A DNA stretch of 33,257 nt, taken from the NCBI GenBank assembly GCA_945871085.1, contig CAMBVX010000026.1, positions 1 through 33,257 of the forward strand, in the 5' to 3' direction. Below the pieces are notes generated by a model that saw only the letters and a program-made list of their open reading frames with translations, had not been told where the DNA came from and ran no database searches. Numbering within the stretch: position 1 is the first letter of the stretch; each line of letters opens with the position of its first letter. The translations under genes and the position numbers were made by a program. This stretch comes from Opitutus sp. GAS368. Lineage in GTDB: Bacteria > Verrucomicrobiota > Verrucomicrobiia > Opitutales > Opitutaceae. Below, piece by piece: positions 5,676 to 32,195 of this stretch.

Positions 5676-6985
5676 CCACCCGTAAAGAAGTCCCGCACCG
5701 TAGCGACGATATCAGCTCGCAGCACCTCTCGCTCACTGCGGTCGGTGAGGTCGCGGAGTTTCACCACCCCTTTCGCAATTTCATCGCCGCCATAGAGGAG
5801 GGCAATCTTGGCCCCGGACTCCGCCGCCACCTTGAACTGTTTGCCGAACGCGACCTCTTTCATCGGATAATCGACCCGATAACCGGCCGCACGTAACGCG
5901 TGAATATCCCCGAACGCAGCAAGCCTCTCCGCCGCACCGCCAATCACACAGTATACGTCCGGCACCTGCACTAACGTCGGCATCAGGCCGCGTTGTTCAA
6001 GGAGCAGCGCAAACGTCATGTCGCCGATCGCGAAGCCCACTGCCGGCAGCGCCGGTCCGCCGAGCTTCTGCACCAGATCGTCATAACGCCCACCACCCGC
6101 GAGTGCGCGCAACTCTCCCTTGCGGTCGAAGGCCTCAAACACGAATCCCGTGTAATAAGCGAGGCCGCGGACAACCCCGAGGTCGACTTCGATGAACCGC
6201 GCCAACCCCATCGCGCCGAGGTTGCCCAACAGTTTTTTCCAGTCAGCCAGGCGGGCCGTGAGTTTCTCACCGCCGATGGTGCCGAGGGTGTGCTCGAGCG
6301 CTTCGAGCGATTTGATCTGCAGGAAGGCGAGCACCTTGGCCTTCACGCCCTCGTCGAGCGGACCAAACTTCTCCGAATAGCCCTTAAAGGCTTCGTCTCC
6401 GTATTTTTCAAATCGATCGACGGCTCCCAATACTCCGCGAATCCGTAGCTCATCCAGTCCGAGTGCTTCCAAATAGTAGAACCAGAGATTCCGATCACTC
6501 AGCCTCACATAGAAATCCTGTTCCGTCAGGCCAAACGCCGCGAGACACTGCACGAGCATCGCGATCAGTTCCGTTTCCGCCTCTGGACCCGGTTCTCCAA
6601 AAATATCCGCGTTGAACTGGGAGAAGCAACGTCCGCGCCCTTTTTGCATCCGCTCATAACGATAAAACTCCGCGATACTAAACCACTTGATCGGGCGCTT
6701 AAGGGCGCTGGCCTTGGCGCCAACGAGTCGACACACCGTCGGCGTCATCTCCGGACGCAAGGCGACTTCCCGCCCGCCTTTGTCCGTAAAACTGAACAAC
6801 TGCGCTTCGATTTCATCGCCTGACTTCGCCTTGTAAAGCTCGAGGGGCTCGAGCACCGGCGCGTCGTATTCGGCGAAGCCAAAGGTGGTCGCCGTCTGCC
6901 GCCACAGGCGAAAGATATGGTTCCGACGCGCAAAATCCTCGGGATAGAACTCACGGAATCCGGGCAGGGACTGGAATGTGGCCAT
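5672..6985 (-). CDS. hisS: Histidine--tRNA ligase
   Basis: Class II motifs: RPEMTPTVCRLV, FYRYERMQKGRGRCFSQFNADIFG, VVRGLAYYTGFVFEAFD, AGGGRYDDLV, GFAIGDMTFALLL. Confidence 0.95.
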   Translation of the reverse strand: MATFQSLPGFREFYPEDFARRNHIFRLWRQTATTFGFAEYDAPVLEPLELYKAKSGDEIEAQLFSFTDKGGREVALRPEMTPTVCRLVGAKASALKRPIKWFSIAEFYRYERMQKGRGRCFSQFNADIFGEPGPEAETELIAMLVQCLAAFGLTEQDFYVRLSDRNLWFYYLEALGLDELRIRGVLGAVDRFEKYGDEAFKGYSEKFGPLDEGVKAKVLAFLQIKSLEALEHTLGTIGGEKLTARLADWKKLLGNLGAMGLARFIEVDLGVVRGLAYYTGFVFEAFDRKGELRALAGGGRYDDLVQKLGGPALPAVGFAIGDMTFALLLEQRGLMPTLVQVPDVYCVIGGAAERLAAFGDIHALRAAGYRVDYPMKEVAFGKQFKVAAESGAKIALLYGGDEIAKGVVKLRDLTDRSEREVLRADIVATVRDFFTGG

Positions 6986-7118
6986 GGGCCAGAGACTGTA
7001 CGAACCGCGTCAACCTAGGGCGAATAAAAAGTGGGTGCCGCGCGCGCTAGCTCCCGCCCCGGCGTAATTGCGGAACAGCGGCGTATCAACCGCGCAGCCC
7101 CGATGACCGGAGACCCGC

Positions 7119-7436
7119 TCAGTCGGCTGCCTGCAACTTCACGAGGTCGATCTTCTTCAACTGCTGCTTGAGGATCTTGCCGGATTTGAATTTCACGACA
7201 GCTCTCTGAGGGATGATAACCTCGGCCTCCGGCTTGTTGGGATTGCGACCAATTCGCTGCTTGCGCACCTGCACCTCGAGCACACCAAAGTTGCGCAACT
7301 CCACGTTACGCCCTTTAGCGAGCGCCTTTTGCACGATATCGAGCGTCTGTTGCACCGTATCGACGATCTGTTTTTGCGGAAATCCAGACTTCCGGTAAAT
7401 CTCTAGGACAATTTCTCGTTTGGTCAGGTTAGACAT
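7119..7436 (-). CDS. HU/IHF-family DNA-binding protein
   Basis: MSNLTKREIVLEIYRKSGF...VELRNFGVLEVQVRKQRIGRNPNKPEAEVIIPQRAVVKFKSGKILK; typical RxGRNPxxP arm. AAGGAT 5' of the ATG. Confidence 0.93.
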   Translation of the reverse strand: MSNLTKREIVLEIYRKSGFPQKQIVDTVQQTLDIVQKALAKGRNVELRNFGVLEVQVRKQRIGRNPNKPEAEVIIPQRAVVKFKSGKILKQQLKKIDLVKLQAAD

Positions 7437-7568
7437 GGTGGGTATCCTTTCACTGAAGTCTTGTTGAACTGAAGCGTGCTAAACTATTTACACTTGTTGA
7501 ATTGGGTCAATGATTATGACAACTTCACCGCAGATGATTTTACGGCACGTTTCCCGCCTCCACTGACC

Positions 7569-8273
7569 ATGCCCGATCCCGTTGCAGTCAACTCCATGTT
7601 CGCGCGCATCGCAGCCCGTTACGACGTCGCCAACCGGCTCTTGAGCGGCGGACTGGACGTGTGGTGGCGGCGCCAACTCGTCGCCGCGGTCTGCCGTGGA
7701 GCACCCCGCGCCATCCTAGACCTCGCAACCGGAAGCGGAGACGTGGCGTTTGCGCTCGCTCGGCGACTCCCGTCAGCCACGACAATCACCGGAATTGATT
7801 TCTGCCAACCCATGCTTGACGCGGCCGAAATCAAGAAAAATGCCGACGGTGCCGGCACCTACGCCAACGTCTCTTTCCGCCAAGGTGACGGCCTCGCACT
7901 CCCCTTGCCCGACGCGTTCTGCGACGCGGTTACGATTTCGTTTGGCCTGCGAAATCTCGCCGACCGCCATGGCGGGCTGCGTGAAATCCACCGCGTGTTG
8001 CGCGCGGGCGGACGTCTCTTCGTCCTAGAGTTTTCGCAGCCCTCGGCGTGGTTTCGCCCGTTTTACTTCTTCTATTTGAGGAAAATTATCCCGCTGGTCG
8101 CCGGCTTCGTGACGGGCGATCGCGCAGCCTATGTTTATCTGAACGAAACCATCGAACAGTTTCCCGCCGCAGCTGCGCTCGCCGACGAGATTCAAGCCGC
8201 CGGCTTTACGTCCGTGTCGGCTACCACCATGACCTTCGGCACGGTCGCGATCCACGAGTGCACCAAAAAATAA
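7569..8273 (+). CDS. ubiE/menG: Demethylmenaquinone/ubiquinone methyltransferase
   Basis: MFARIAARYDVANRLLSGGLDVWWRRQLV, LDLATGSGDVAF, FGLRNLADRHGGLREIHRVLRAGGRLFVLEFSQP. Confidence 0.93.
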   Translation: MPDPVAVNSMFARIAARYDVANRLLSGGLDVWWRRQLVAAVCRGAPRAILDLATGSGDVAFALARRLPSATTITGIDFCQPMLDAAEIKKNADGAGTYANVSFRQGDGLALPLPDAFCDAVTISFGLRNLADRHGGLREIHRVLRAGGRLFVLEFSQPSAWFRPFYFFYLRKIIPLVAGFVTGDRAAYVYLNETIEQFPAAAALADEIQAAGFTSVSATTMTFGTVAIHECTKK

Positions 8274-8323
8274 TCCCCCACGTGGAGCAATTGAAACCAT
8301 ACCAGCTGACCTTTTTTCAAGCC

Positions 8324-8641
8324 TCAGCTAAACGACTTTCCGCAGCCGCACGTGCTTTGGGCGTTGGGATTCTTGATTTCAAAACCCTTCCCGTGCAGGC
8401 CGTCATCGAAGTCGACCAACGAACCCTCAAGATACGCCAGACTCGCCGGATCCATCAAGATGGGCACGCCCTCACTTTCCAATTCCGCGTCGGCTTCCTT
8501 TTTCTCATCGAACGACATTCCATATTGGAAGCCAGAGCAACCACCTGATTCGACAAATACGCGGAGACGTTTCGTCGGCGTATTGAGTTCGGCGTGCATG
8601 GCACGAACTTGGCGCGCGGCCCTTGGAGTGAGAGAAATCAC
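8324..8641 (-). CDS. erpA: HesB/IscA/ErpA-type iron-sulfur cluster assembly protein
   Basis: A-type carrier signature: three Cys in VESGGCSGFQYGM and STCGCGKSF. Confidence 0.9.
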   Translation of the reverse strand: MISLTPRAARQVRAMHAELNTPTKRLRVFVESGGCSGFQYGMSFDEKKEADAELESEGVPILMDPASLAYLEGSLVDFDDGLHGKGFEIKNPNAQSTCGCGKSFS

Positions 8642-8754
8642 AATTTCAGCGTAAGATCGCGCATCACCCTGTCAAATCAGCTCACAGCAAATTCCGCGCC
8701 TACCACGATATGCGCTCTTGCCAGTGACCCTGACGCCCGCCTTTCTCCAATTCT

Positions 8755-9726
8755 GTGGCCGCACTTAAGCACATTTTCAACGAGCTCCACTACGAGATGA
8801 CCCGCAAGATCGCGGAAGGCGGCATGGGCCTCGTCTATGAAGCCGTGCAGCTCGGAGCGGGTAATTTCAGGAAGGTTGTCGCGGTAAAAGTTATTCGGGA
8901 AGAATATTCTGCCATCGAAGAATTTCAGAACAATTTTATCGGCGAGGCGCGACTCGTTGCCGACCTGATCCATACCAACATTGTCCAGACCTACCACCTC
9001 GGTCAGGTCGGCGGCCAATATTTCATGGTAATGGAATTCGTCAAAGGCGTGAATCTTGAGCAATTTCTCGAGCGTCATCGCCAGCTGGGCAAACAAATCC
9101 CCACCGATCTCGCCGCCTTCATCGTCTCACGGATCGCCCGCGGCCTCACCTACGCACACACGAAATGTGATCGCGACGGCCGTCACCTCAACATTGTCCA
9201 CCGCGACATCGGGCCCAAGAACGTGCTCGTCGCCCAAGAGGGCGACGTCAAGCTCACTGACTTCGGCATCGCGAAGGCGCTCGACCTAATGTATAATGAG
9301 GAAGGCAAAGTGATTGCGGGCAAGGACGAGTATCTTTCCCCGGAACAGGCCACCTACGCCATCACCGACGCACGCGCCGACCTCTTCCCTCTCGGCATCG
9401 TCCTCACAGAGCTACTCCTAGGTAAGAATATCTTTCGCTCCCACGACCGTTCGCAGTCTCGGCGCAACATATTGACGATGCCGATTCCGCAGTTCGCGAC
9501 GTTGCGCCCGGATATCGATCCCAAACTTGAGGCGATTATTCAGCGGGCCTTGGAGCGCGACCGGGAGAAACGTTACCAATCAGGCTACGAAATGCTCACG
9601 GCCCTCGAATTGTATTTGTATAGTGACGGTTACGGACCCACCAACGAAAAACTCGGCGTTTACATCAAAGAGCTCTTCGGGATCAAAGACCCCGTTATCC
9701 CTCCGCTTTCCCGCCCCCCAACCTGA
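8755..9726 (+). CDS. Serine/threonine protein kinase
   Basis: GTG start; [11 protein letters not shown] glycine loop, VAVKVI Lys, [10 protein letters not shown] catalytic loop, [14 protein letters not shown]. Confidence 0.9.
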
Positions 9727-9755: not shown

Positions 9756-11279
9756 ATGAGCGGGCACGGATTTAGTCACGAACTGCGCCAGCGTCAGACC
9801 CAATCGCTGGTCCTCGCTCCGCAACTTAGGCACTCCCTGAAAATCCTTCAGGTGGCCGCGCTCGATCTGCGCTCGGTCATCCAAGAAGAACTGCAAAGCA
9901 ATCCGACGCTCGAAGAACTCCCCATGGAGGGAGTCAGCCTCGACCATACCGCACCCGAGGACAACGCTACCGACCGGGATTCCGACTCCAGTGGAAAAGT
10001 CGGCACCGACACGACTGACGCCACCGCTCCCTCCGACACTTCAGAAGTAAAGCGCGATGAAATGGATTTCTCCAAAGACAAGGAATTCGAGATCCTGGGC
10101 AAGCTCGACGAAGACTGGCGCGACCACATGGCCAGCGCCGGCGGCGCTCAACCCTACACCTCGGAGGATGCCGAGAAGCGGCAACACTTTTTTGACTCCC
10201 TCGTCAGCGAGACCTCGTTGCAGGAGCATCTCATGCAGCAAGCGGAAATGACGGATCTCTCGCCGGCAGCCCTGCAAGCGATGCAGCATCTTGTCGGCGG
10301 TCTCGACGACCGTGGTTTTTTGACCCAAACGCCCGCCGATGTCGCACTCCAAACGGGCCTCGGACTGGAGGCCGTGCAAGCGGCACTGAAGACCCTCAAA
10401 AGCTTTGATCCTCCCGGCATTGGGGCCAAGAATCTCGCCGAGTGCCTCCTCCTACAACTCGCCGCCAAAGGCCGCAGCGATTCGCTGGCGCTGCGCATGA
10501 TCCGAGACTACTTCGAACTCCTCACCCGCCGGCGCATCCCGGAGCTCGCGCGAAAGCTTTCCGCCGATACCGACGATGTGCAATCCGCCATCGAGGAAAT
10601 TGGCAAACTCGACCCAGCCCCCGGCCGACGCTTTGCCGAAGACAACAATCGCGTCGTCATTGCCGATGTAACCGTGGAGAAAGACGGCGACGAGTGGAAG
10701 ATCAACCTCAACAGCGACTACATCCCACGCCTCCGCCTCTCCAGCACCTATCGCGACCTGATCGCCAAGGGCACGCTCTCGAAAGAAGAGCGCGACTATC
10801 TGCGTGAGAAAATGCGCTCCGGAAAGTTTCTCATTGATTCGATCGAGCAGCGCCAGCGCACCATCGAACGCATCACGCGTGAAATCATCAAGGCGCAGAC
10901 CCCTTTCTTTGAGACCGGAGTCTCACAGCTCAAGCCGCTCACGATGACTCAAATCGCGGATGTTGTCGGCGTCCACGAAACCACGGTCAGTCGCGCCATC
11001 GCCAATAAATATATCAAAACCCCCCATGGGATTTTCGATTTCAAATATTTCTTCACGCCCGGCTACCAAGCGGACAGCGGCGCCTCGGTCTCGAATACCA
11101 GCGTCAAGGAAATGCTCGCCGATCTCGTCGCCGGTGAAGACAAAGGGACCCCGCTCAGCGATCAAGAAATCGTGGCGAGACTGCAGGAAAAAGGCATCAA
11201 GATCGCCCGCCGCACAGTAGCTAAATACCGTGAAGAGCTCGGCCTCCTCCCGAGCAACTTGCGCCGGGATTACAAGTAG
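9756..11279 (+). CDS. rpoN: RNA polymerase sigma-54 factor
   Basis: N-terminal Q-rich region I (RQRQTQSLVLAPQLRHSLKILQ), HETTVSRAIANKYIKTPHGIFDFKYFF, RpoN box IARRTVAKYREELGLLPS. Confidence 0.96.
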   Translation: MSGHGFSHELRQRQTQSLVLAPQLRHSLKILQVAALDLRSVIQEELQSNPTLEELPMEGVSLDHTAPEDNATDRDSDSSGKVGTDTTDATAPSDTSEVKRDEMDFSKDKEFEILGKLDEDWRDHMASAGGAQPYTSEDAEKRQHFFDSLVSETSLQEHLMQQAEMTDLSPAALQAMQHLVGGLDDRGFLTQTPADVALQTGLGLEAVQAALKTLKSFDPPGIGAKNLAECLLLQLAAKGRSDSLALRMIRDYFELLTRRRIPELARKLSADTDDVQSAIEEIGKLDPAPGRRFAEDNNRVVIADVTVEKDGDEWKINLNSDYIPRLRLSSTYRDLIAKGTLSKEERDYLREKMRSGKFLIDSIEQRQRTIERITREIIKAQTPFFETGVSQLKPLTMTQIADVVGVHETTVSRAIANKYIKTPHGIFDFKYFFTPGYQADSGASVSNTSVKEMLADLVAGEDKGTPLSDQEIVARLQEKGIKIARRTVAKYREELGLLPSNLRRDYK

Positions 11280-19255: not shown

Positions 19256-20716
19256 ATGAACAATGACACCCGCTGGCTAGCCCGACTCGGCATCGACCAG
19301 GGCCTCTTCACCCGCCCCCAAGCCCTCCAAGTCCGCAACGCCGCCGGCGCCGACGGAGACATCATGGCCTTCGCCCAAGGTCTGATCGACTCCGGCATCG
19401 TCACCGATCTCGACACGCTTGAAAAACTCGCCGACCTCGCCCTCACCAAAGGAGAAAAAGGTCCGCCGGCCGCCGACCCTTTCGATGACAACGCGACCCA
19501 GGCGCCCTTCGTTCAAACCGGCACTGCCGCCCATGCTCGTGGCCTCACCACCGACCTCGGCACTGACCACGCCCAAGCCCCGCCGAAGACCTCCGGCCTC
19601 GGTCCCGCGCCCAAATTCGCTTTCGAGACAATTCAGACGCTCAGCGACACCGCACTCGCCACCGCCCTCCGCGCCCTCCTCCGCGCCACCGCCAACTACG
19701 GCGCCAGCGACCTCCATCTCTGCACCGGTGCCCGACCGTTCATCCGGAAAAATCGCGCACTCTCCTTCCTCTCCGACTATACCCTCACCGCGCAGGACGC
19801 CCTCCGCCTCAACGTCGCCCTGCTCGCCGACCACCAGAAAAAAATCTTCCTCGAGAAAAAGGACTACGACTACGCCTTGGCCCTGAGCGACGCCGACCGC
19901 TACCGCGTCAACTTAATGTTCCACAAGAACGGCGCCGCCGGTGCCTACCGCATGGTTCCGGCGGATACGCGCACGCTCGAAACCCTCGGCTACACCCAGC
20001 ACATCGCCACGCTGCACAAACTCCTCTCCTACCATAACGGCCTCATCCTCATCACCGGCCCCGTTGGCTCCGGCAAGACCACCACCCTCGCCTCGATGGT
20101 CGCCTACCTCAACGAGACCCGCACCGACCACATCATCACCGTCGAAGACCCCATCGAAGTCGTCCAACCCTCCAAGGGCTGCAACGTCACCCAGCGCGAA
20201 GTCGGCCCACACACCCGCTCCTTCGCCACCGCCCTCAAAGGCGCCCTCCGCGAAGACCCCGACGTCATCGTCATCGGCGAACTCCGCGACCTCGAGACCA
20301 TCGAGATGGCGATCAGTGCCTCCGAGACGGGCCACCTCGTCATCGGGACGATGCACACCAGCGACGCCGCCACGACTCTCAACCGCCTCCTCGACGTTTT
20401 CCCTCCGGCGCAGCAAACGCAGATTCGTTCCAGCGTTGCCGAGAGCCTCCGCGGCGTCGTGTGCCAACGCCTTCTGCCGGCCCTCGACGGCACCGTCGTC
20501 CTCGCGTGCGAAATTCTCGTCAGCAACACGGCGATTCAAAACCTCATCAAAGAAGGCAAGACCACGGGCCTGAAAAACACGATGGAGACGGGCGTGAAAG
20601 AAGGAATGTGTCTCATGGACAACGTCGTCCTCGCTCTCTGGAAGGACAAAAAAATCACCGCCGAAACCGCCCAGATGAACATCACCAACCGCGTGCTGAA
20701 GGCGAAGATCACGTGA
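19256..20716 (+). CDS. Type IV pilus retraction ATPase, PilT/PilU-type with an extra N-terminal domain
   Basis: GPVGSGKTTTLASM Walker A, DPDVIVIGELRDLETI Asp/Walker B, GTMHTSDAATTLNRLLDVFP His box; about 115-residue N-terminal extension plus linker. Confidence 0.9.
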   Translation: MNNDTRWLARLGIDQGLFTRPQALQVRNAAGADGDIMAFAQGLIDSGIVTDLDTLEKLADLALTKGEKGPPAADPFDDNATQAPFVQTGTAAHARGLTTDLGTDHAQAPPKTSGLGPAPKFAFETIQTLSDTALATALRALLRATANYGASDLHLCTGARPFIRKNRALSFLSDYTLTAQDALRLNVALLADHQKKIFLEKKDYDYALALSDADRYRVNLMFHKNGAAGAYRMVPADTRTLETLGYTQHIATLHKLLSYHNGLILITGPVGSGKTTTLASMVAYLNETRTDHIITVEDPIEVVQPSKGCNVTQREVGPHTRSFATALKGALREDPDVIVIGELRDLETIEMAISASETGHLVIGTMHTSDAATTLNRLLDVFPPAQQTQIRSSVAESLRGVVCQRLLPALDGTVVLACEILVSNTAIQNLIKEGKTTGLKNTMETGVKEGMCLMDNVVLALWKDKKITAETAQMNITNRVLKAKIT

Positions 20717-21449: not shown

Positions 21450-22526
21450 ATGGCCGCCATCGACACCCTCCTCCGCACCATGCTTGAAAAGGGCGGGTCC
21501 GACCTCCACCTCACCGTCGGCCTCCCGCCCAAAACCCGCGCCTCGGGCGCCCTCATCCCCCTCGCGGGCACGGTCATCGATGCCCCGACGATGGAGTCCC
21601 TGCTCAAAGAAATTTGCCCCGCCAAACGTTGGGCCGAATTTCTCGACCGCAAGGACCTCGACCTTGCCCACGAGATCCCCGGCCTCGCCCGTTTCCGCGG
21701 CAATTACCTCTACAATCACTGGGGCCAAGCCGCCGTCTTCCGCCAAATCCCGGCCAAAATCCTTTCCTTCGATGAACTCAAGCTCCCCGAGTCGCTGAAA
21801 AAACTCTGCCACCTCGATCAAGGCCTGGTCGTCGTCACCGGACCGACCGGCTCCGGCAAATCGACCACGCTCGCCGCAATGATCGATTACATTAACACCA
21901 ACCTCTCCCGCCACATCATCACCATCGAGGATCCCATCGAGTTCGTCCACCCGGTGAAAAAATGTGTCATCGTGCACCGCGAGGTCGGCGAACATACCGC
22001 CTCCTTTGCAAATGCCCTGAAAGGCGCGATGCGCCACGACCCCGACATCCTCCTCCTCGGTGAAATGCGCGAGATGGAGACGATCAAACTCGCCCTCGGC
22101 TGCGCCTCGATGGGCATGCTCGTTTTCGGCACGCTGCACACCAACAACGCCCCGAAGACCGTCGACCGCATTATCAACACCTTTCCCGCCGAGGAACAAA
22201 ATCAGGTCCGCATCATGCTCGGCAGCTGCCTCGCCGGTGTCGTCGCCCAGCTCCTCTGCAAACGCATTCCGAAGGGTCGCTGCGCCGTCCACGAAATTCT
22301 CTTACAGCATGAAGCGCTGCCCAACACGATCCGCAGCGGCCAGATTGCGAATATCAAATCCATCATCGAGAGCGGTGGCATGGACGGCATGATCACCATG
22401 GACAACAGCCTCATGAACCGCGTGAAAGACGGAACCATCGAGCCCAAAGAAGCCTACATGAAAGCCGCCAACAAAGGCACCTTCGCCCCGCTCCTCCAAC
22501 CCGGCGACCTCGAAGGCGGACACTGA
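21450..22526 (+). CDS. pilT: Type IV pilus twitching motility protein PilT
   Basis: GPTGSGKSTTLAAMIDYIN, HPVKKCVIVHREVGEHTASFANALKGAMRHDPDILLLGEMREMETI, GTLHTNNAPKTVDRIINTFP. Confidence 0.93.
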   Translation: MAAIDTLLRTMLEKGGSDLHLTVGLPPKTRASGALIPLAGTVIDAPTMESLLKEICPAKRWAEFLDRKDLDLAHEIPGLARFRGNYLYNHWGQAAVFRQIPAKILSFDELKLPESLKKLCHLDQGLVVVTGPTGSGKSTTLAAMIDYINTNLSRHIITIEDPIEFVHPVKKCVIVHREVGEHTASFANALKGAMRHDPDILLLGEMREMETIKLALGCASMGMLVFGTLHTNNAPKTVDRIINTFPAEEQNQVRIMLGSCLAGVVAQLLCKRIPKGRCAVHEILLQHEALPNTIRSGQIANIKSIIESGGMDGMITMDNSLMNRVKDGTIEPKEAYMKAANKGTFAPLLQPGDLEGGH

Positions 22527-24059: not shown

Positions 24060-24398
24060 ATGTCCAGCGTGCCACCACCGACCAATGAGCTTGCCGAACT
24101 CGCCTCTGTGCTCGGTGAAGATAACGTCCGCACTCTCGTCCGCACCTTTCTTCGCGACTTCCCCGTCTCACTCGCCGAACTCTCCGGCCCCGGTGATCGC
24201 AAGAACCGCCACCGCATCGCCCATAGCATGAAGAGCAACACCCGCCTGATGGGGGCGCACCATCTCTCCGACCGCATGGCCGCCCTCGAGACCCGCTTGG
24301 AGCAGCCGACCGGACCAGACTTCACCGCCGACGATCTCACCCTCATCTCGCGCGATTACGAAGCGATCGCCGGCCCGCTCCGCGCATTCGTCGGCTAG
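24060..24398 (+). CDS. Hpt (histidine phosphotransfer) domain protein
   Basis: RIAHSMKSNTRLMGAHHLSDRMAALE matches the Hpt phosphohistidine helix (AHxLKxxxxxxGA). Confidence 0.8.
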   Translation: MSSVPPPTNELAELASVLGEDNVRTLVRTFLRDFPVSLAELSGPGDRKNRHRIAHSMKSNTRLMGAHHLSDRMAALETRLEQPTGPDFTADDLTLISRDYEAIAGPLRAFVG

Positions 24399-24476: not shown

Positions 24477-25118
24477 TCAATTGTCGACCAAGCCAACTTG
24501 GATACACCACCGCGTTAGGCTCGCCACCTCGCGCACGCCGACTTTTTCCATGATGTTGGCCCGGTGTTTCTCCACCGTCCGCACACTCAGGCCAAGTTTG
24601 GAGGCGATCTCCTTCGACATCTGGCCTGCGGCCACCAAACGCGCGATCTCCTGCTCCCGGGCGGTGAGCGGCACGTCCAGCGGACGTTTCGCGCCCGGCA
24701 AAGCCCCACCACTACGGGCCCGCACCCGGCTCGCAAAAAACATGCCGCCCGCGCGCACCGTCTCGACCGCGCTCAGCACATACTCAATCGGTTCCGTCTT
24801 GTCGACGTAGCCATTGACGCCGATGGCCATCAAATCCGCCGGCAAGCGCTCACTCGGGTGCGCCGTAATCACCAAAATTTTCATGTCCGGCACCAAGCGC
24901 CGAATCTCGCGCGCGATCTCCAGCCCATTGATGTCCGGCAGCATCAGATCAACCACCAGCATGTCCGGTTTCTCACGGAGACAATACTCGAGTCCCGGCT
25001 TGCCGAGACCAAACTCGCCAACCACTTGAATCCCCTTCACCTTGCCCAACGTGAGCAAAATTAACTGGCGAAACATCGTCTCGTCTTCGATGAGAACAAC
25101 TTTGATTTGGCTGCGCAT
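24477..25118 (-). CDS. NarL/FixJ-type response regulator
   Basis: IKVVLIEDETMFRQLI, LVVDLMLPDINGLE, VDKTEP receiver motifs; LTAREQEIARLVAAGQMSKEIASKLGLSVRTVEKHRANIMEKVGV LuxR HTH. Confidence 0.95.
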   Translation of the reverse strand: MRSQIKVVLIEDETMFRQLILLTLGKVKGIQVVGEFGLGKPGLEYCLREKPDMLVVDLMLPDINGLEIAREIRRLVPDMKILVITAHPSERLPADLMAIGVNGYVDKTEPIEYVLSAVETVRAGGMFFASRVRARSGGALPGAKRPLDVPLTAREQEIARLVAAGQMSKEIASKLGLSVRTVEKHRANIMEKVGVREVASLTRWCIQVGLVDN

Positions 25119-25308: not shown

Positions 25309-26907
25309 ATGAGCGAGGCCGCCAAAGCCCCCCCTCGTGCGCACGTGATGGTCGTGGAAGATTCATCCGTCTTCCGGGAAATGCAGGGCCTCCTTTTGCG
25401 TCAGGCCGGCTATGAGGTTTCGGGCCACGAACACCCCCAAACCGCCCTCGCGGCGGCACGCGAGCGCAAGTTCGATCTCGTGATCATCGACTACGAACTC
25501 CCGGAAATGAACGGCCACCAGTTCATGCATGAACTGCGCAAGATTCTTCCCGATATCGCGATCATCTTCGTCTCCGGTTCACTTACCCTCCAACTGGCCA
25601 TCCAGCTCAGTCGCGAGGGCGTCGCCGGCATTTTTAACAAGCCCGCCAACCCGAAGACGCTCCTCGAAAAAATTAACGAGACGCTCACCCGCACCGGTTC
25701 GCGCGACGCCGCTGTGCCCGGCGGCAGCTCCAGCTCGCCGCTCCCAGCCGCCCGCCGCGGCAGCTCCAGCGCCCCTTTCCCCGCTGCCCCCGCCGCCCCG
25801 TCCGAGCCGTCGGCCGGCGATCTCGCCTACGCGCCGCGCTATTTTCCCGGCCATTGCGAAGCCTTCCGCGAATTCACCCATCGTCTCTGGAAAGTCCGCG
25901 ATTTTCGCGCGGTGCTCCTCTTGCAGGGTGAGGATGGCTCGGCTTTCGAGCTCATCGCCCGCGACCTCGCTGCTATTTCCATTTTCCGCGACGGTCCGAT
26001 CATGGCATGCGATGCCGCTCAGTTCGAAACCAGCCACCTCATCGAGGTCCTCGCGCCCACTCTCCTCGCACGGGACGCCGGCACGTTGATCATCACCGGC
26101 GTCGAGTCCCTCACCGTCGCCCAGCAGAAAGTCCTCGAGACCCTGATGACCAGCCGCGACGTGTTCCTCCCGTTCGCCCGCCGCTTTCGCCTCGTGCTCG
26201 CTTCCGCCGGACTACTCTCCGATCTCGCCGACTCCGGTCATTTCGGCGAAACTCTCTACTACAAGATCAGCTCCCTCTCCGTGGAGGTTCCATCCCTCGA
26301 CGAGCTCCGCGACGACATCCTCCTGCACGCCCGCCAACTGCTCGATCAGCATAGCGCCGCGAACAAATCCGCGAGATCCCCCGCCCTCACGACCGACGCC
26401 GCCGTCTGGCTGGAAGGGCAGGAGTGGGTCGGAAACTACACCGAACTCTCCCGCACCCTCCAACTTGCCCTCGCGACCTCGACAGGCCCCGAGCTTGATG
26501 TCCCCGCCCTCGAAACAGCCCTCGAACGAGCGCTCGTGGAGGTCGGTAAAACCCACGCCGCTCCGCTACCTGCCGCAGTTCCGCCCCGCGCCCGCGTTCC
26601 CGCCGCCATCGAGGAAACCCTTCCGCCGTTTTTCATGCGCGCCGCGCCCGCGACCGGTGTCGCAGTCCCGCCCCCCCCCCCCGTTCCCGCCCCGGCGACC
26701 GCTTCGATCCCGGCGGTCACTGCGGCCACCAGCCAGCACACCGCCGACGTTCCACCGCCGACACCGGCCGCCCCGAAACCATCGCCCGCCCGCCCGCCTT
26801 CCGGGCTCACGGCGCGCAGCGTGTTTCGCCCGGCTTCGAGCGCCTATGATTTCAGTAAACGCCTAGCCGAGTCTCTGGCGGTCGCCGAAGTCGCCCCCGC
26901 CTCGTGA
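25309..26907 (+). CDS. Receiver domain fused to a degenerate sigma-54-activator-like AAA+ domain (pseudo-ATPase) and a Pro/Ala-rich tail; no HTH
   Basis: REC: VVEDSSVFREM...VIIDYELPEMNG...FVSGS...FNKPA. AAA+-like: AVLLLQGEDGSAFELIARDL, AGTLIITGVESLTVAQQKVLETL, HFGETLYYKISSLSVEVPSLDELRDDILL, WLEGQEWVGNYTELSRTLQLAL. Confidence 0.8.
   Translation: MSEAAKAPPRAHVMVVEDSSVFREMQGLLLRQAGYEVSGHEHPQTALAAARERKFDLVIIDYELPEMNGHQFMHELRKILPDIAIIFVSGSLTLQLAIQLSREGVAGIFNKPANPKTLLEKINETLTRTGSRDAAVPGGSSSSPLPAARRGSSSAPFPAAPAAPSEPSAGDLAYAPRYFPGHCEAFREFTHRLWKVRDFRAVLLLQGEDGSAFELIARDLAAISIFRDGPIMACDAAQFETSHLIEVLAPTLLARDAGTLIITGVESLTVAQQKVLETLMTSRDVFLPFARRFRLVLASAGLLSDLADSGHFGETLYYKISSLSVEVPSLDELRDDILLHARQLLDQHSAANKSARSPALTTDAAVWLEGQEWVGNYTELSRTLQLALATSTGPELDVPALETALERALVEVGKTHAAPLPAAVPPRARVPAAIEETLPPFFMRAAPATGVAVPPPPPVPAPATASIPAVTAATSQHTADVPPPTPAAPKPSPARPPSGLTARSVFRPASSAYDFSKRLAESLAVAEVAPAS
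26671..26682 (+). repeat. C12 homopolymer inside the coding region
   Basis: Twelve consecutive C between cagtcccg and gttcccgc; encodes part of VPPPPPVP. Confidence 0.9.
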
Positions 26908-27069
26908 GCCCGCCTGCCTGCGGCCACCCGCCCGCGCAATCCCCTTGAGTCGCGCGCCCGACCACGCACGCTCGGGAATTCCTCGCTCGGCCATTCTTGT
27001 CTGGTCTCACTGCCAGCCTCGCCTCGCCACTCGTCCTCGCCTAATTCTTTCGTTCCTCGTCCATCATCC

Positions 27070-27717
27070 ATGTCTTTCCGCTCGAACAGCGACGGCCTTC
27101 GACCGACTCCCTCTGAACTCATTCGCCCCATGCTCGCCGAAGGGGCTCTTCGCCTCGCCGATGGCCAACGTATCGCCGTGCTCCCGGGCGCTTTTTTTCC
27201 GCAACTTTCCGTCGGACTCGACCAACCGTCCGGCGACCACGTGCGCCACGCCGTCTACAAACTCGGCTACGAATGGGCCCTGCAAGATATGGTGCGCCTG
27301 AGCCGCCAACTCGCCGCCGAATTCGGCGCCGGTGCCAACCTCGACCTCTGGCAAATGGACGTAAAATTTGTCCTCGACCGTTGGTGGGCGCCCCTCAACG
27401 CCGCCGGCTGGGGTGCTTGGACCCTCGACCTGTCCTCGCGCACCCGCCGTTTCGCCTTCGTGGAACTCCACCATAGCCTCGTCGCCGCCCACTCCCCCGG
27501 CGCGACCCAGCCTTCCTGCCACCTTTACGCCGGCCTCTTCGCCGGCGCACTCAGCTTTTTTGACCGCATCGAATCTCACTCCGTGGAATTTCAGTGCGCC
27601 TCCCTCGGGGCTCCCTCCTGCCGGTTCGTCGTCGGTCCTGGCCCACAAGTCGACGAAGTGGAATCGTGGCGCCAGCAAAAGGTCGCTCCCGACGAAATCC
27701 GCCGTCGGCTCACCTAA
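27070..27717 (+). CDS. V4R-domain protein, copy 1
   Basis: QPSCHLYAGLFAGALSFFDRIESHSVEFQCASLGAPSCRFVVG: V4R C-terminal signature with a Cx7C pair. Confidence 0.75.
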   Translation: MSFRSNSDGLRPTPSELIRPMLAEGALRLADGQRIAVLPGAFFPQLSVGLDQPSGDHVRHAVYKLGYEWALQDMVRLSRQLAAEFGAGANLDLWQMDVKFVLDRWWAPLNAAGWGAWTLDLSSRTRRFAFVELHHSLVAAHSPGATQPSCHLYAGLFAGALSFFDRIESHSVEFQCASLGAPSCRFVVGPGPQVDEVESWRQQKVAPDEIRRRLT

Positions 27718-27728
27718 CTCCAACCGCC

Positions 27729-27986
27729 ATGAATGCTTGGAATGAAACCCACTACGCCCGCGCTCAGGAGTTCACCCGCCTCCTGTCCCAGGCACTCTCC
27801 GCCGCCGCACCCGCGACCGCCGCCAACCCGGCCACGGCACCTGCACCGGTCGTTTCACCGCTGATCGCCTCCCCTCCTCCGCCGTCTCCCGCGACATCCT
27901 CTGCGCCCGTTCCACCCGCTGCACCCGCCCCGGCCGGTGCCCAACCCGCTGCCAACCTCTTCAAGAAAATCCCGTGGAAAAAGTGA
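27729..27986 (+). CDS. 85-aa Pro/Ala-rich small protein with helical N-terminus and basic C-terminus
   Basis: ATG 11 nt after the previous stop and 12 nt before the next start: MNAWNETHYARAQEFTRLLSQALSAA-(P/A-rich)-NLFKKIPWKK. Confidence 0.65.
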   Translation: MNAWNETHYARAQEFTRLLSQALSAAAPATAANPATAPAPVVSPLIASPPPPSPATSSAPVPPAAPAPAGAQPAANLFKKIPWKK

Positions 27987-27998
27987 CCACCCGCCGCG

Positions 27999-28649
27999 AT
28001 GCCTCCCTCTGACGATACCACTTCCCCAGCCGACCTCGACCGTCTCTTCGACCCTCGCGCGTTTCTGGCCGATGCCGCCACCGGCCGCGTCTCCGACCCC
28101 ATCGGCACCCGCGTCGCCTACGTCTCGCGTGAATTCTCCCGCGCCCTCCATCACATCCTCATGAAGGAAAAGTCGGGCGCATGGCGTGACACCCTCGCCC
28201 GCAGCGGACGCGTGTGCGGCCGCGAAATCGCCGAGGGTCTCGACCGGGAGTCCGCCCGCCTCGGCCTGCCCGCCCTCGGGGCCCTCCCGCTGGAGACGTG
28301 TCTGGTCTTTCTCGAGCGTATCTTCGTTGCCCACGGCTGGGGCGTATTGCGGGTCGACCTCGCTGACGCCCCCGAACACGGCCTCGTCACCGCCCAGCTC
28401 ACCCACAGCTATTTCGCGGAAGTCCTGTCCCATGTGGACGATTTCGTCGACCCTCTGCCCGCCGGCACTCTTCAAGGTTTCTTCGAGCACATCAGCGGCG
28501 AACCACTCGGTTGTCTCGAAATCGCCTGCGTCCGCCGCGGCGCCCCTCAGTGCACCTTCGTCATCACCGCGAGCGAACGCCTCGACGCCATCGCCCCCTT
28601 CCTCGGCCGTGAGCCTGCCGCCGCGATTATCGCGCGACTCAAAGCCTGA
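27999..28649 (+). CDS. V4R-domain protein, copy 2
   Basis: EPLGCLEIACVRRGAPQCTFVI: V4R-like Cx7C signature. Aligns with copy 1 over ...FLERIFVAHGWGVLRVDL / VLDRWWAPLNAAGWGAWTLDL. Confidence 0.7.
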   Translation: MPPSDDTTSPADLDRLFDPRAFLADAATGRVSDPIGTRVAYVSREFSRALHHILMKEKSGAWRDTLARSGRVCGREIAEGLDRESARLGLPALGALPLETCLVFLERIFVAHGWGVLRVDLADAPEHGLVTAQLTHSYFAEVLSHVDDFVDPLPAGTLQGFFEHISGEPLGCLEIACVRRGAPQCTFVITASERLDAIAPFLGREPAAAIIARLKA

Positions 28650-28660
28650 GCCCGCCAGTC

Positions 28661-29260
28661 ATGTCCCTCGCTTCGCCGAAAATCACCTGCCTTTTCTTCA
28701 CCGACCCGTCGCTGCCATCGTTTTTGGCCACCCCCGCCGGTCGGGCCCTCGCCGGCGACCTCCTCGTCGAATGCGCCCCGCACCCCGCGTTGGGCTACGT
28801 GCTCAACCTTGAGACTCCTTCCAATTACCCCGGCGTCGCCGGCCTCCTCGGCGGGATCGACGTCGGCACGCTCGCCCACCCCACCGACGCGCTGCCCGCG
28901 CCCATCCTCCTCGCCGCCGGCGCGCCCGTCTCGATGCTCGCCGTGCGCTCCGCCCTGACCTGCCTCCTGCGTCCCGACGAACGCCTCCGCGCGATCACCC
29001 TGCTCGTCCCACTCGGCGAAGCCCGCGCCCTCGGCGCCGCACTCGCCGTCGCTGACCGCTTCGCCATTGCTTGGGACGTCGCCGCCTTTCCGCACGAGGA
29101 ACTCCTCGCCTTCGCCGGTTGGCTCGCAGCCGAAAAACTCCTCACCCGAGAAAATTTCGCCGGCCTCCACCCCTACGCGGCGACCCCGTCCGCGGCCCAC
29201 ACTCAGCGCCTCGCTCCCCTGCTCGCTCCCCTCAACGCGCGCCTGCTCTCCGTCGCGTAG
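28661..29260 (+). CDS. Hypothetical protein, last gene of the V4R run
   Basis: 199-aa ORF starting 11 nt after the V4R-2 stop; no recognised family. Confidence 0.65.
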   Translation: MSLASPKITCLFFTDPSLPSFLATPAGRALAGDLLVECAPHPALGYVLNLETPSNYPGVAGLLGGIDVGTLAHPTDALPAPILLAAGAPVSMLAVRSALTCLLRPDERLRAITLLVPLGEARALGAALAVADRFAIAWDVAAFPHEELLAFAGWLAAEKLLTRENFAGLHPYAATPSAAHTQRLAPLLAPLNARLLSVA

Positions 29261-29333: not shown

Positions 29334-29906
29334 TCACGCGCGCGCCCGCGCATGCAGCCAACACCGCAGCGCACGAAAATCCTCCGGCAAAAAAACCTCG
29401 CGATTTTCTGCCAACACGTCCGACCCACCGCGCCATTCCCGCTGCAATAATTCTCCGTGGCCTGCTGCGGTGTGCGCCACCCAATGCGGACAATCCACAC
29501 AGTGAGTCCCACTCACGCGCCCCCGCACTCGCTCCAGTTCCTGTCGCCGACAGCCCCCGCCCTTGGCCACTTCCCGAAATGAGTCCCGGCACACCGTAAA
29601 CTCTGGATACACGCACGCCTTCACGAGCTGCGTCACCGTCTTCGCCAGCAAATCATCGTTCGCTCCCACCAGCACCCGCGCCACGAGCGGCGCGCACTCC
29701 GCCTCGCTCATCCCGCCCGGCACACCGCACTCACCTTCCCGCAACGCCCGCGGCAACCCGCGCTCCCGCACGAGCGCCCACAGTCGCCCGCTCACCGCCG
29801 CAGCCTCGGTCGCCGCCAGCGCTGCGCGCCCATTCTGCTCGAAAAATCGCCCCAACACCGCCGTCACCAACCCAGGAAAATCCCTTGCCGCCGCGTCATC
29901 GTTCAT
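29334..29906 (-). CDS. Hypothetical Cys-rich protein
   Basis: 190-aa ORF with CVYPEFTVCRDSFREVAKGGGCRRQELERVRGRVSGTHCVDCPHW, a potential metal-binding Cys cluster. Confidence 0.6.
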   Translation of the reverse strand: MNDDAAARDFPGLVTAVLGRFFEQNGRAALAATEAAAVSGRLWALVRERGLPRALREGECGVPGGMSEAECAPLVARVLVGANDDLLAKTVTQLVKACVYPEFTVCRDSFREVAKGGGCRRQELERVRGRVSGTHCVDCPHWVAHTAAGHGELLQREWRGGSDVLAENREVFLPEDFRALRCWLHARARA

Positions 29907-30156: not shown

Positions 30157-31599
30157 ATGATCCAAACTCTCACCGCCCCCGCGCCCGCGCCGCTCTATGT
30201 CGAGCTCGCGCGTTCGATTGAGCAACTCATCGACCAAGGCACCCTGCGACCCGGCCACCGACTCCCGTCCGTCCGCCGCATGTCGCTCCAACGCGACGTC
30301 AGCATCTCCACCGTCCTCCAAGCCTACACGCTCCTCGAAAACCGCAGCCGCGTCGAAGCCCGCCCCCAATCCGGTTACTACGTCCGCCCCCGTTTGTCCG
30401 GAGCCGCGCTCGAGCCGCGCATGGCCAAGCCCATGGCGAAAGCCAGCTACGTCGGCGTCAACGATCTCACCGCCGAAGTCCTCACCCTCGCCAGCGATCC
30501 CCACTACGTCCCCTTCGGCGCCGCGTGCCCGCACCACTCGTTGTTCCCCACCAAAAAACTCGCGCGCCTTCTCGCCGCCGTCGGCCGCAACGACCCGTCC
30601 CTCCTCGGGCGCTACGCCATGAACTCCGCCTACGATCCGCTCAGCCGCGAGATCGCCCGCCGCTATCTCCAGGCCGGTTGCCCACTCGCCCATGACGAAC
30701 TCGTCGTCACCATCGGCTGCACCGAAGCCCTCAACCTCTCCCTCCGCGCCGTCACCAAACCCGGTGACACCGTCGCCGTCGAGACGCCCACCTACTTCGG
30801 TTTTCTCGAAACCCTCCAGAGCCTCAACCTCCGCGTCGTCGAAATTCCCACCGGCTCCCGCACCGGCATCTGCCTCGACGCCACGCGCGAAGCCCTCGCC
30901 CACCACGATGTGAAGGCCCTGATGGTCATGCCCAGTTTCTCCAATCCCCTCGGCTCCTGCATGCCGGATGAGCACAAGGAGAAACTCTACCGCATCCTCG
31001 CCGAGTTCGACGTCCCCGCCATCGAAGATGATGTCTACGGCGACCTCCATTTTGGCGAGCGCCGCCCCAAGCCCCTCAAAGCCTGGGACACCGACGGTCG
31101 CGTCCTCCTCTGCAGCGGCTTTGGCAAAACCCTCGCCCCCGCCCTGCGCGTCGGCTGGTGCGCGCCCGGCCGTTACCTCGAACGCGTCCGCCGTCTCAAA
31201 TTTACCAATACCCTCGGCACGCCCGTTGTCCTCCAAAAAACTGTTTCCGATTTTCTCCGCAACGGCGGCTACGATCACCACCTGCGCTCCATTCGCCGCG
31301 CGTATCATAACCAGCTACACCTCTTCTCGCAGGCGATCCTCCGGTATTTTCCCGAAGGCACGCGGCTCAGCCGTCCCGAAGGCAGCTTCGTGCTCTGGAT
31401 CGAACTCCCGCCCGGCGTCGACACCCTCCGCCTCTACCGCGACGCCCTCAAACAGCACATCACCACCGCCCCCGGCGCGCTCTTCTCCGTGAAGGATCGC
31501 TACAAAAACTGCCTCCGCATGAACTGCGGACTCCCCTGGACCGACGCCATCGCCACCGCCCTCCAAACCCTCGGCGACCTCGCCAAGAAACAACTCTGA
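30157..31599 (+). CDS. MocR/GntR-type regulator with PLP-dependent aminotransferase domain
   Basis: GntR wHTH: LYVELARSIEQLIDQGTLRPGHRLPSVRRMSLQRDVSISTVLQAYTLLENR. Aminotransferase fold: PSFSNPLGSCMP, IEDDVYGDLHF, SGFGKTLAPALRVGWCAP (PLP Lys). Confidence 0.92.
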   Translation: MIQTLTAPAPAPLYVELARSIEQLIDQGTLRPGHRLPSVRRMSLQRDVSISTVLQAYTLLENRSRVEARPQSGYYVRPRLSGAALEPRMAKPMAKASYVGVNDLTAEVLTLASDPHYVPFGAACPHHSLFPTKKLARLLAAVGRNDPSLLGRYAMNSAYDPLSREIARRYLQAGCPLAHDELVVTIGCTEALNLSLRAVTKPGDTVAVETPTYFGFLETLQSLNLRVVEIPTGSRTGICLDATREALAHHDVKALMVMPSFSNPLGSCMPDEHKEKLYRILAEFDVPAIEDDVYGDLHFGERRPKPLKAWDTDGRVLLCSGFGKTLAPALRVGWCAPGRYLERVRRLKFTNTLGTPVVLQKTVSDFLRNGGYDHHLRSIRRAYHNQLHLFSQAILRYFPEGTRLSRPEGSFVLWIELPPGVDTLRLYRDALKQHITTAPGALFSVKDRYKNCLRMNCGLPWTDAIATALQTLGDLAKKQL

Positions 31600-31667
31600 C
31601 GCCCAACGGACCGGCGGCTTTTCAGCCGCCGTCAATCGACACGGCCTCCACCCTCCCTTTTTCCCCG

Positions 31668-32195
31668 ATGCCTTTCACCCCCGAATCCCTCTCGGTTCCT
31701 CCCTCCTCCTGCGACCTCGCCGCGCTCCACGCTCTACTCCGCGACGCCGTCGAGAGCGGCGCCTCCATCGGCTTCACGCTCCCGCTCACCGACCCCGAAA
31801 TTTCCGCCTACTGGGCCGAAGTCTTGTCCGCCGTCGCCGACGGCCCGCGCGTCCTCCTCGTCACCCGCGACGATACCCACCGCATCGTCGGCAGCGTGCA
31901 ACTCGAACTCGCGCAGCGCTCCAATTCCCGCCACCGCTGCGAACTCCAAAAACTCCTCGTCCTCCGCTCGCACCGCGGCCGCCGACTCGGCTTCACCCTC
32001 ATGCAAGCCGCCGAACACGCCGCCCGCGCCGCTCACCGCACCCTCATTGTCCTCGACACCAGCGCCAGCGGCAACGCGCTCAATCTCTACGACCGTTGCG
32101 GTTACACCCACGCCGGCGTGATCCCTCGCTACGCCACCGACCCCGACGGCACGTTCATCGACACGGTCCTCTACTACACGGAACTCACCCTCTAA
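31668..32195 (+). CDS. GNAT-family N-acetyltransferase
   Basis: VGSVQLELAQRSNSRHRCELQKLLVLRSHRGRRLGFTLMQAAEHAAR (acetyl-CoA loop), NALNLYDRCGYTHAGVIPRYA. Confidence 0.88.
   Translation: MPFTPESLSVPPSSCDLAALHALLRDAVESGASIGFTLPLTDPEISAYWAEVLSAVADGPRVLLVTRDDTHRIVGSVQLELAQRSNSRHRCELQKLLVLRSHRGRRLGFTLMQAAEHAARAAHRTLIVLDTSASGNALNLYDRCGYTHAGVIPRYATDPDGTFIDTVLYYTELTL

Follow-up and report, generated by a model that had tools for sequence, protein, structure and literature searches.

The locus considered here lies within a stretch of 33,257 nucleotides from Opitutus sp. GAS368 (contig CAMBVX010000026.1, hereafter the window) and consists of five co-oriented genes at 25309-29260, encoding in this order a REC-pseudo-bEBP, a V4R protein (V4RA), an 85-aa Pro/Ala-rich adaptor, a further V4R protein (V4RB) and a 199-aa protein. 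The features of the locus and of its surroundings are the following:

9756-11279: rpoN, in the same window
24060..24398, forward strand: Hpt phosphotransfer protein, 112 aa, a conserved neighbour
24477..25118, reverse strand: NarL-type response regulator (REC + GerE), a divergent neighbour
25309..26907, forward strand: REC-pseudo-bEBP, 532 aa, with REC, degenerate AAA+ and Pro/Ala-rich tail (Pfam, alignment)
27070..27717, forward strand: V4RA, 215 aa, clade A V4R protein (Pfam, ML tree, zinc-ligand alignment)
27729..27986, forward strand: adaptor, 85 aa, with conserved N-terminus MxxWNExHYARAxEF, Pro/Ala-rich middle and C-terminal LFKKIPWKK
27954..27983, forward strand: C-terminal linear motif NLFKKIPWKK of the adaptor, of the [FW]xx-hydrophobic-x-W family
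27999..28649, forward strand: V4RB, 216 aa, clade B V4R protein (Pfam, ML tree, zinc-position alignment)
28661..29260, forward strand: 199-aa protein with a ParA/Soj/MinD/FleN-like predicted fold and no P-loop
29334..29906, reverse strand: 190-aa helical protein, convergent, with invariant C106, C136 and C139 (CRxS...HCxDCP)

A gap of 162 nt separates the end of the REC-pseudo-bEBP gene (26907) from the start of V4RA (27070), and the later gaps measure 11 nt (27717 to 27729), 12 nt (27986 to 27999) and 11 nt (28649 to 28661). A previous sequence-only reading of this DNA had described such a packed block, flanked by an Hpt protein and a NarL-type regulator and with no histidine kinase visible in the window. 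On all these points it was correct, as the open reading frames and gaps are as described, both neighbours lie upstream of the operon and no such kinase is found among the window genes scanned. A promoter and terminator scan of the locus gave nothing usable.

Conservation of the block and ancestry of the V4R pair

Co-occurrence of the genes in other genomes, which the same reading had proposed as a check, is indeed found. The block is kept in 14 genomes with the gene order of the window-type operon intact, and pairwise comparisons give a dN of about 0.2-0.3 of dS for each operon gene, the small adaptor gene included; therefore, the gene block is not a product of chance. As judged from substitution ratios, the remaining operon genes are shown to be under purifying selection. 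Within the family, the window-type operon occurs sporadically. Across 80 named loci, the gene order is shared.

The presence of two V4R genes is confirmed by the HMM check named for them, since both products pass the Pfam cut-off of 31 for PF02830 (V4RA, 45.5 bits, E 8e-12; V4RB, 32.1 bits, E 1.3e-7). The two align with each other at 28% over 109 aa (E 2e-6). In the maximum-likelihood tree, the window-type V4RA sequences form a single clade (support 100) inside clade A, beside that of locus L068 (90), and the window-type V4RB sequences a single clade (support 100) inside clade B, again beside L068 (98), whereas the V4R of XylR sits on a long branch far outside clades A and B. The stem branches of both window-type clades are long (0.5-0.56). 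At the level of sequence, V4RA and V4RB of the window-type lineage are thus shown to derive from the pre-PcyA/BBAG cluster by one split.

The pre-PcyA/BBAG clusters (pre-1, pre-3) have been tied to bilins by Rockwell, Martin and Lagarias in 2023 (PMC10151467). The parent cluster, to which Synechocystis slr0144-slr0149 belongs, has the order Fe-S, V4RA, adaptor, BBAG, V4RB and kinase, where BBAG is a phycobiliprotein-like globin, and further includes a ParA-like protein, a heme oxygenase and a bilin reductase. The window shares with these clusters the two V4R clades, their order and the adaptor gene in between and, with those of Opitutales, also the 199-aa protein and the Cys-rich 190-aa protein. 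Unlike them, it has no BBAG either at the locus or elsewhere in the genome, which is also without the cluster Fe-S protein, bilin reductase and heme oxygenase; moreover, the cluster kinase is not at the locus and REC-pseudo-bEBP comes first in the operon. Consequently, the claim that the operon is undescribed stands only in part: the parent cluster has been known since 2023, but the bilin-free version is absent from the searchable literature, in which no description of the motif protein, the pseudo-bEBP or the ParA-like protein was found either.

The products of Synechocystis Slr0144-Slr0149 interact physically (PMC9880817). In contrast to the window, this operon belongs to a phototroph host, is linked to PSII assembly/repair, keeps globin and Fe-S protein and has no REC-pseudo-bEBP. 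Cyanobacterial loci such as L127, L128 and L135 show the order V4R, small motif protein, BBAG, V4R, Fe-S, and by gene order this small motif protein occupies the slr0145 position.

Genome-wide searches of the 14 genomes carrying the window-type operon detected neither BBAG nor the cluster Fe-S (2Fe-2S) protein (0/14 each), and heme oxygenase and bilin reductase (FDBR) are likewise missing from all 14. BBAG, heme oxygenase and bilin reductase are instead all present in the seven related Opitutales genomes tested (7/7), and the Fe-S protein, searched genome-wide in two of these seven, is present in both. As far as homology searches reach, every tested member of the window-type lineage is therefore shown to have lost all four genes genome-wide. 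Given that the V4R proteins nest in bilin-cluster clades and that the pigment genes are absent, the operon would represent a bilin-free descendant of these clusters.

In V4RA, the zinc-ligand set C150/E173/C176/C184, found with identical spacing in XylR/MopR, is maintained, the C-E-C-C ligands being kept in 46/46 V4RA sequences, and 14 of 56 otherwise conserved V4RA positions are lost in the window clade, among them W107, W117, Y177 and F199, which are conserved in bilin-type clusters. The zinc positions of window-type V4RB read D-E-C-C in 13/13 sequences. Searches for V4RA and for the 199-aa protein on plasmids or phages gave no match.

Adaptor, 199-aa protein and REC-pseudo-bEBP

No Pfam family is matched by the 85-aa adaptor, but its sequence carries a recognizable signature. 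The [FW]xx-hydrophobic-x-W motif is present in adaptors from cyanobacteria to Verrucomicrobiota, with 132 occurrences in 72 sequences, compared with 5.5 after shuffling, a count lowered by the start-near rule used to choose adaptor ORFs, as a few were mispicked (e.g. L061, L064). The motif density is 12.6 per 1000 aa in adaptors versus 0.016 in the other cluster proteins; bilin-type adaptors carry 1-5 copies and the window adaptor one. The position of the gene, between V4RA and the next gene, is general across clusters, in L062 and L067 V4RA carries the adaptor tail as a fusion at its C-terminus, and wherever the gene persists the motif is conserved over large divergence. On sequence grounds, the adaptor is a true component of the cluster, and the earlier idea of a small adaptor gains independent support from the conservation of its motif between phyla.

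Pfam and PDB sequence searches with the 199-aa protein returned no Pfam family and nothing usable. Its AlphaFold model (pLDDT 87.7) resembles P-loop NTPases of the ParA/Soj/MinD/FleN type, the best Foldseek match of this predicted model having E 9.7e-6 and TM 0.63; the deviant Walker A P-loop is absent from the alignment. Because a profile comparison with the ParA proteins of the same genomes was not significant, the ParA-like assignment applies at the level of the fold only. The protein is also encoded in bilin-type clusters. Since it is missing from six window-type loci, and the adaptor from three (L063, L069, L071), neither is strictly needed.

REC-pseudo-bEBP, present in 14/14 window-type operons, combines a REC domain (PF00072, 1.2e-21) with a degenerate Sigma54_activ_2 match (2.7e-13). 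The REC site is kept, with its acidic pair, phospho-acceptor Asp (VIIDYELPEMNG), Ser and Lys, while Walker A is replaced by GEDGSAFEL and neither a GAFTGA loop nor an HTH/DNA-binding domain was found by Pfam and alignment. The V4R pair of bilin-type clusters is mostly without such a neighbour; nevertheless, the protein is also encoded at the Opitutales bilin-type loci L066, L033, L072 and L073, and L066, with both BBAG and the REC-pseudo-AAA protein, is an intermediate. A bEBP-like protein encoded with a partner of (predicted) FleN/MinD-like fold recalls FleQ-FleN; however, here both proteins are devoid of nucleotide-binding motifs and the bEBP-like one of an HTH, so that the two systems are alike in arrangement alone.

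A putative ligand-sensing module and its alternatives

In our opinion, the operon is probably a bilin-free pre-PcyA/BBAG descendant in which a scaffolded V4RA-V4RB ligand sensor is coupled to a phosphorelay, a role that we infer. V4RA and V4RB would form a zinc-containing pair whose ligand is a small hydrophobic molecule, but not a bilin made by the cell itself, with the disordered adaptor holding V4RA to a partner through its [FW]xx-hydrophobic-PW motif. The ligand state would then be passed on to the REC-pseudo-AAA+ protein, whose REC domain may receive phosphate from the adjacent Hpt. As this protein is incapable of acting as a sigma-54 activator, it most likely acts by binding proteins in a phosphorylation-dependent manner, and the ParA-like protein might be its non-hydrolysing partner. 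More tentatively, the V4RA-V4RB complex may have outlived the pigment as a bilin-independent module, with a motif-protein scaffold and output via the REC-pseudo-AAA+ and P-loop-less ParA-like pseudo-enzymes. If true, the slr0144-type clusters would originally have had a common task in ligand signalling rather than in the handling of bilins as such.

The job of the V4R pair in bilin clusters and in slr0144-slr0149 is an acknowledged open question (PMC13326532). In this respect, the window-type lineage amounts to a natural subtraction experiment, in which globin, heme oxygenase, bilin reductase and Fe-S protein were dropped and V4R pair, adaptor and REC-bearing protein kept; with the pigment genes lost and the rest under selection, the operon reveals the capacity of the non-pigment half of the cluster. 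The lineage also separates the four aromatic V4RA residues, which track with the pigment half, from the zinc site, and the motif protein supplies a defined binding element that can be put to the test in all clusters of this class, those of cyanobacteria among them.

An alternative that we consider unlikely is that a tetrapyrrole, whether scavenged or arising as a biosynthetic intermediate (heme or a porphyrin, for example), is still carried or sensed by the V4R pair. The bilin connection of the parent cluster (PMC10151467) is in its favour, as is a view, quoted in PMC13326532, by which an interaction between the V4R domain and precursors of chlorophyll is inferred for Rhodobacter capsulatus; however, the very globin that binds the bilin has been lost, together with W107, W117, Y177 and F199 of V4RA. 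It seems quite improbable that the genes are functionless leftovers on their way out after the loss of bilin synthesis: the missing pigment half, the long V4R stems, the absence of adaptor and/or 199-aa protein from some members and the sporadic distribution are all compatible with decay, but dN/dS values of about 0.2-0.3 in all genes, an intact order in 14 genomes and the preservation over large divergence of the zinc ligands, of the REC site and, in those members that retain the adaptor gene, of its motif argue against it. Finally, the sequence-only reading had seen in the locus a dismantled XylR/DmpR/MopR-type activator, with V4R sensor and AAA+ split into separate polypeptides, a model by which sigma-54 transcription would still be regulated, and this origin is very hard to sustain: the V4R fold, the C-E-C-C set, the nearby REC/AAA-like protein and rpoN in the same window would fit, but the V4Rs belong to the BBAG-cluster clades, so that XylR descent is largely refuted by the tree, the AAA+ is non-functional and without DNA-binding domain, and the REC-pseudo-AAA protein, mostly no neighbour of the bilin-type pair, also occurs in Opitutales bilin-type clusters. 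What survives of that reading is the conserved unit of pseudo-bEBP, V4R pair, adaptor-like protein and 199-aa protein.

The genes around the operon are less tightly bound to it. Hpt (PF01627, 7.4e-5, just short of the Pfam cut-off) is a candidate phosphodonor for REC domains. Two genomes (G014, G023) have the Hpt-NarL pair but no V4R operon, so that obligate membership is ruled out and the pair is a neighbour, not a core member, which may be connected to the operon. For the histidine kinase that adjoins Hpt in relatives, no clear orthologue was found in the source genome (best 39%). A structure search with a confident model of the 190-aa Cys protein gave no match; in bilin-type clusters this protein adjoins heme oxygenase, and it is probably an outlying member of the cluster.

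Architecture and origin of the operon

The features considered in the window are the following:
25309-29260, co-oriented: block of five genes, from ORF coordinates
29334-29906, minus strand: convergent gene for a 190-aa protein, with relatives in two compared loci (L032:733-1386 and L065:1395-2060)

The first product of the block (532 aa), referred to as REC-pseudo-bEBP, combines a REC with a degenerate sigma-54 AAA domain (Pfam). It is followed after 162 nt by four packed genes with 11, 12 and 11 nt between them, a layout that exactly matches the coordinates and gaps of the sequence-only reading. That reading had also taken the second and fourth products, here V4RA and V4RB, for V4R paralogues; PF02830 bears out the V4R assignment, and the third (85 aa, the adaptor) and fifth (199 aa) matched no family in the Pfam scan.

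The operon genes do recur together in other genomes, the co-occurrence that it had proposed as a check. Relatives of V4RA were found in genomes of the same genus, in three more genera of its family and, elsewhere in the order, in five genomes of other families. Scanning named genomes yielded 80 loci, annotated with profiles built from those loci themselves, whose general order is Fe-S protein, V4RA, gap ORF, phycobilisome-domain globin (BBAG), V4RB and Ser/Thr kinase, many clusters also containing a homologue of the 199-aa protein. This order occurs in Verrucomicrobiota, Pseudomonadota, Myxococcota, Acidobacteriota and Cyanobacteria. For example, Pfam recognizes in L028, a bilin-type Opitutales cluster, heme oxygenase (1.6e-60), BBAG (PF00502, 7.2e-12), 2Fe-2S (3.2e-9), kinase and PP2C. 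This cluster has already been described, Synechocystis slr0144-slr0149 included (Rockwell et al. 2023; PMC10151467). In bilin-type Opitutales clusters, a protein of ~1940 aa is encoded between the heme oxygenase and Fe-S genes (L028:10957-16785, minus strand; L032:2215-8058, plus strand); it matches no Pfam family at cut-off, and below the threshold there is one phycobilisome-domain match (0.0049), in L032.

REC-pseudo-bEBP, V4RA and V4RB occur together in 14 genomes whose locus has no BBAG, Fe-S or kinase gene. Genome-wide, none of these 14 window-type genomes has BBAG, heme oxygenase, bilin reductase (PF05996) or the cluster Fe-S protein, the last search having G044 and G127 as its only positive controls; BBAG, heme oxygenase and reductase are all present in 7/7 related Opitutales tested. 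Many of the genomes are MAGs, and that of the window is 95.8% complete; nonetheless, an absence of four genes common to 14 genomes is not explained by incompleteness. The window type constitutes a separate branch that is pigment-free. In a V4R tree built by a quick method, with SH-aLRT as its only support, the window type forms a single clade in both V4RA and V4RB. As both clades are sister to one bilin-type Opitutales genome (L068), a single loss fits the data and, since it happened once, the 14 genomes cannot be counted as that many separate observations. Descent from the bilin-type cluster followed by loss is strongly supported and very probable.

The V4R pair and its adaptor

V4RA has 56 positions with at least 90% conservation outside the window clade, and 14 of these are lost within it, F199 among them. 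Specifically, W107 and Y177 occur in 33/33 sequences outside versus 0/13 inside, where W117 is kept in three of 13. The C-E-C-C set, which binds zinc in MopR, is retained in all 46 V4RA sequences with the spacing of MopR and XylR, and window-type V4RB has D-E-C-C at the zinc-ligand positions (13/13). Pairwise dN/dS is ~0.2-0.3 in nearly all comparisons of well-separated genomes, the closest pair giving higher, less reliable values.

The gap ORF, that is, the adaptor, is a conserved cluster member. The motif [x][FW]xx[ILVFM]xW occurs 132 times in the gap ORFs of 72 loci versus 5.5 expected from shuffles, figures that describe an enrichment rather than a blind test, as the pattern was set after viewing the sequences. 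The argument rests on the comparison with other cluster proteins (12.6 vs 0.016 per 1000 aa) and on the span of phyla. The window adaptor has one copy, LFKKIPW, and other loci up to five. L062 and L067 have no separate adaptor gene and their V4RA ends in AAKIPWKK, the V4RA tail of L064 being similar; separate adaptor and 199-aa genes occur in the same eight window-type loci. Synechocystis slr0145 is the adaptor's counterpart by gene order only. More tentatively, V4RA and V4RB might act as a scaffolded sensor, a mechanism favoured, among other reasons, by the conserved adaptor motif and which we consider possible rather than probable. For descent, loss and mechanism taken as one explanation, confidence is moderate, midway between these two gradings.

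REC-pseudo-bEBP and the 199-aa protein

REC-pseudo-bEBP has an intact REC active site, GEDGSAFEL at the Walker A position, and neither GAFTGA nor HTH. Four bilin-type loci of Opitutales (L066, L033, L072 and L073) encode equally degenerate relatives, so that the association of this protein with the cluster is older than bilin loss. In bilin-type L072:8821-10909 and L073:16155-18618, a pair of successive pseudo-AAA proteins, of which one has REC, is encoded 3' of the 199-aa gene. In the window, rpoN (sigma-54; 9756-11279, plus strand) lies 14 kb upstream of the pseudo-bEBP gene.

The AlphaFold model of the 199-aa protein (pLDDT 87.7) matches the folds of ParA/Soj, Wzc, FleN and MinD, with a best E of 9.7e-6 and a TM of ~0.6. 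The protein has no P-loop and sequence profiles do not confirm the match; it is ParA-like by predicted fold only.

Neighbouring genes

In window-type genomes the operon is flanked by genes for an Hpt protein and a NarL-type regulator. Within the genus, Hpt tracks the 199-aa gene (present in G002 and G005-G007; absent in G001, G003, G004 and G008). G014 carries Hpt-NarL-MocR with the intervening operon missing; in G023, kinase-Hpt-NarL and the 190-aa gene are present but the V4R operon is absent. A PAS hybrid kinase adjoins Hpt in several relatives, with no clear orthologue in the window's genome. As Hpt-NarL occurs without the operon and the kinase has no clear orthologue here, a link of the operon to a phosphorelay is plausible but unproven. 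The G014 locus (L176) looks like an empty site between NarL (8205-8888) and MocR (6162-7655), V4R operon and 190-aa gene both missing.

The 190-aa gene lies directly beside heme oxygenase in bilin-type clusters. Its product is all-helical with three invariant cysteines (CRxS...HCxDCP); the window protein has no Pfam match and its model matches no solved structure.

Upstream, the window contains PilB-like (19256-20716) and PilT-like (21450-22526) ATPase genes; several relatives also have one or both close to Hpt-NarL, which places the phosphorelay beside pilus genes in this family. Downstream, a MocR-like (GntR-aminotransferase) regulator and a GNAT gene (30157-32195 and beyond) are syntenic in several window-type loci.
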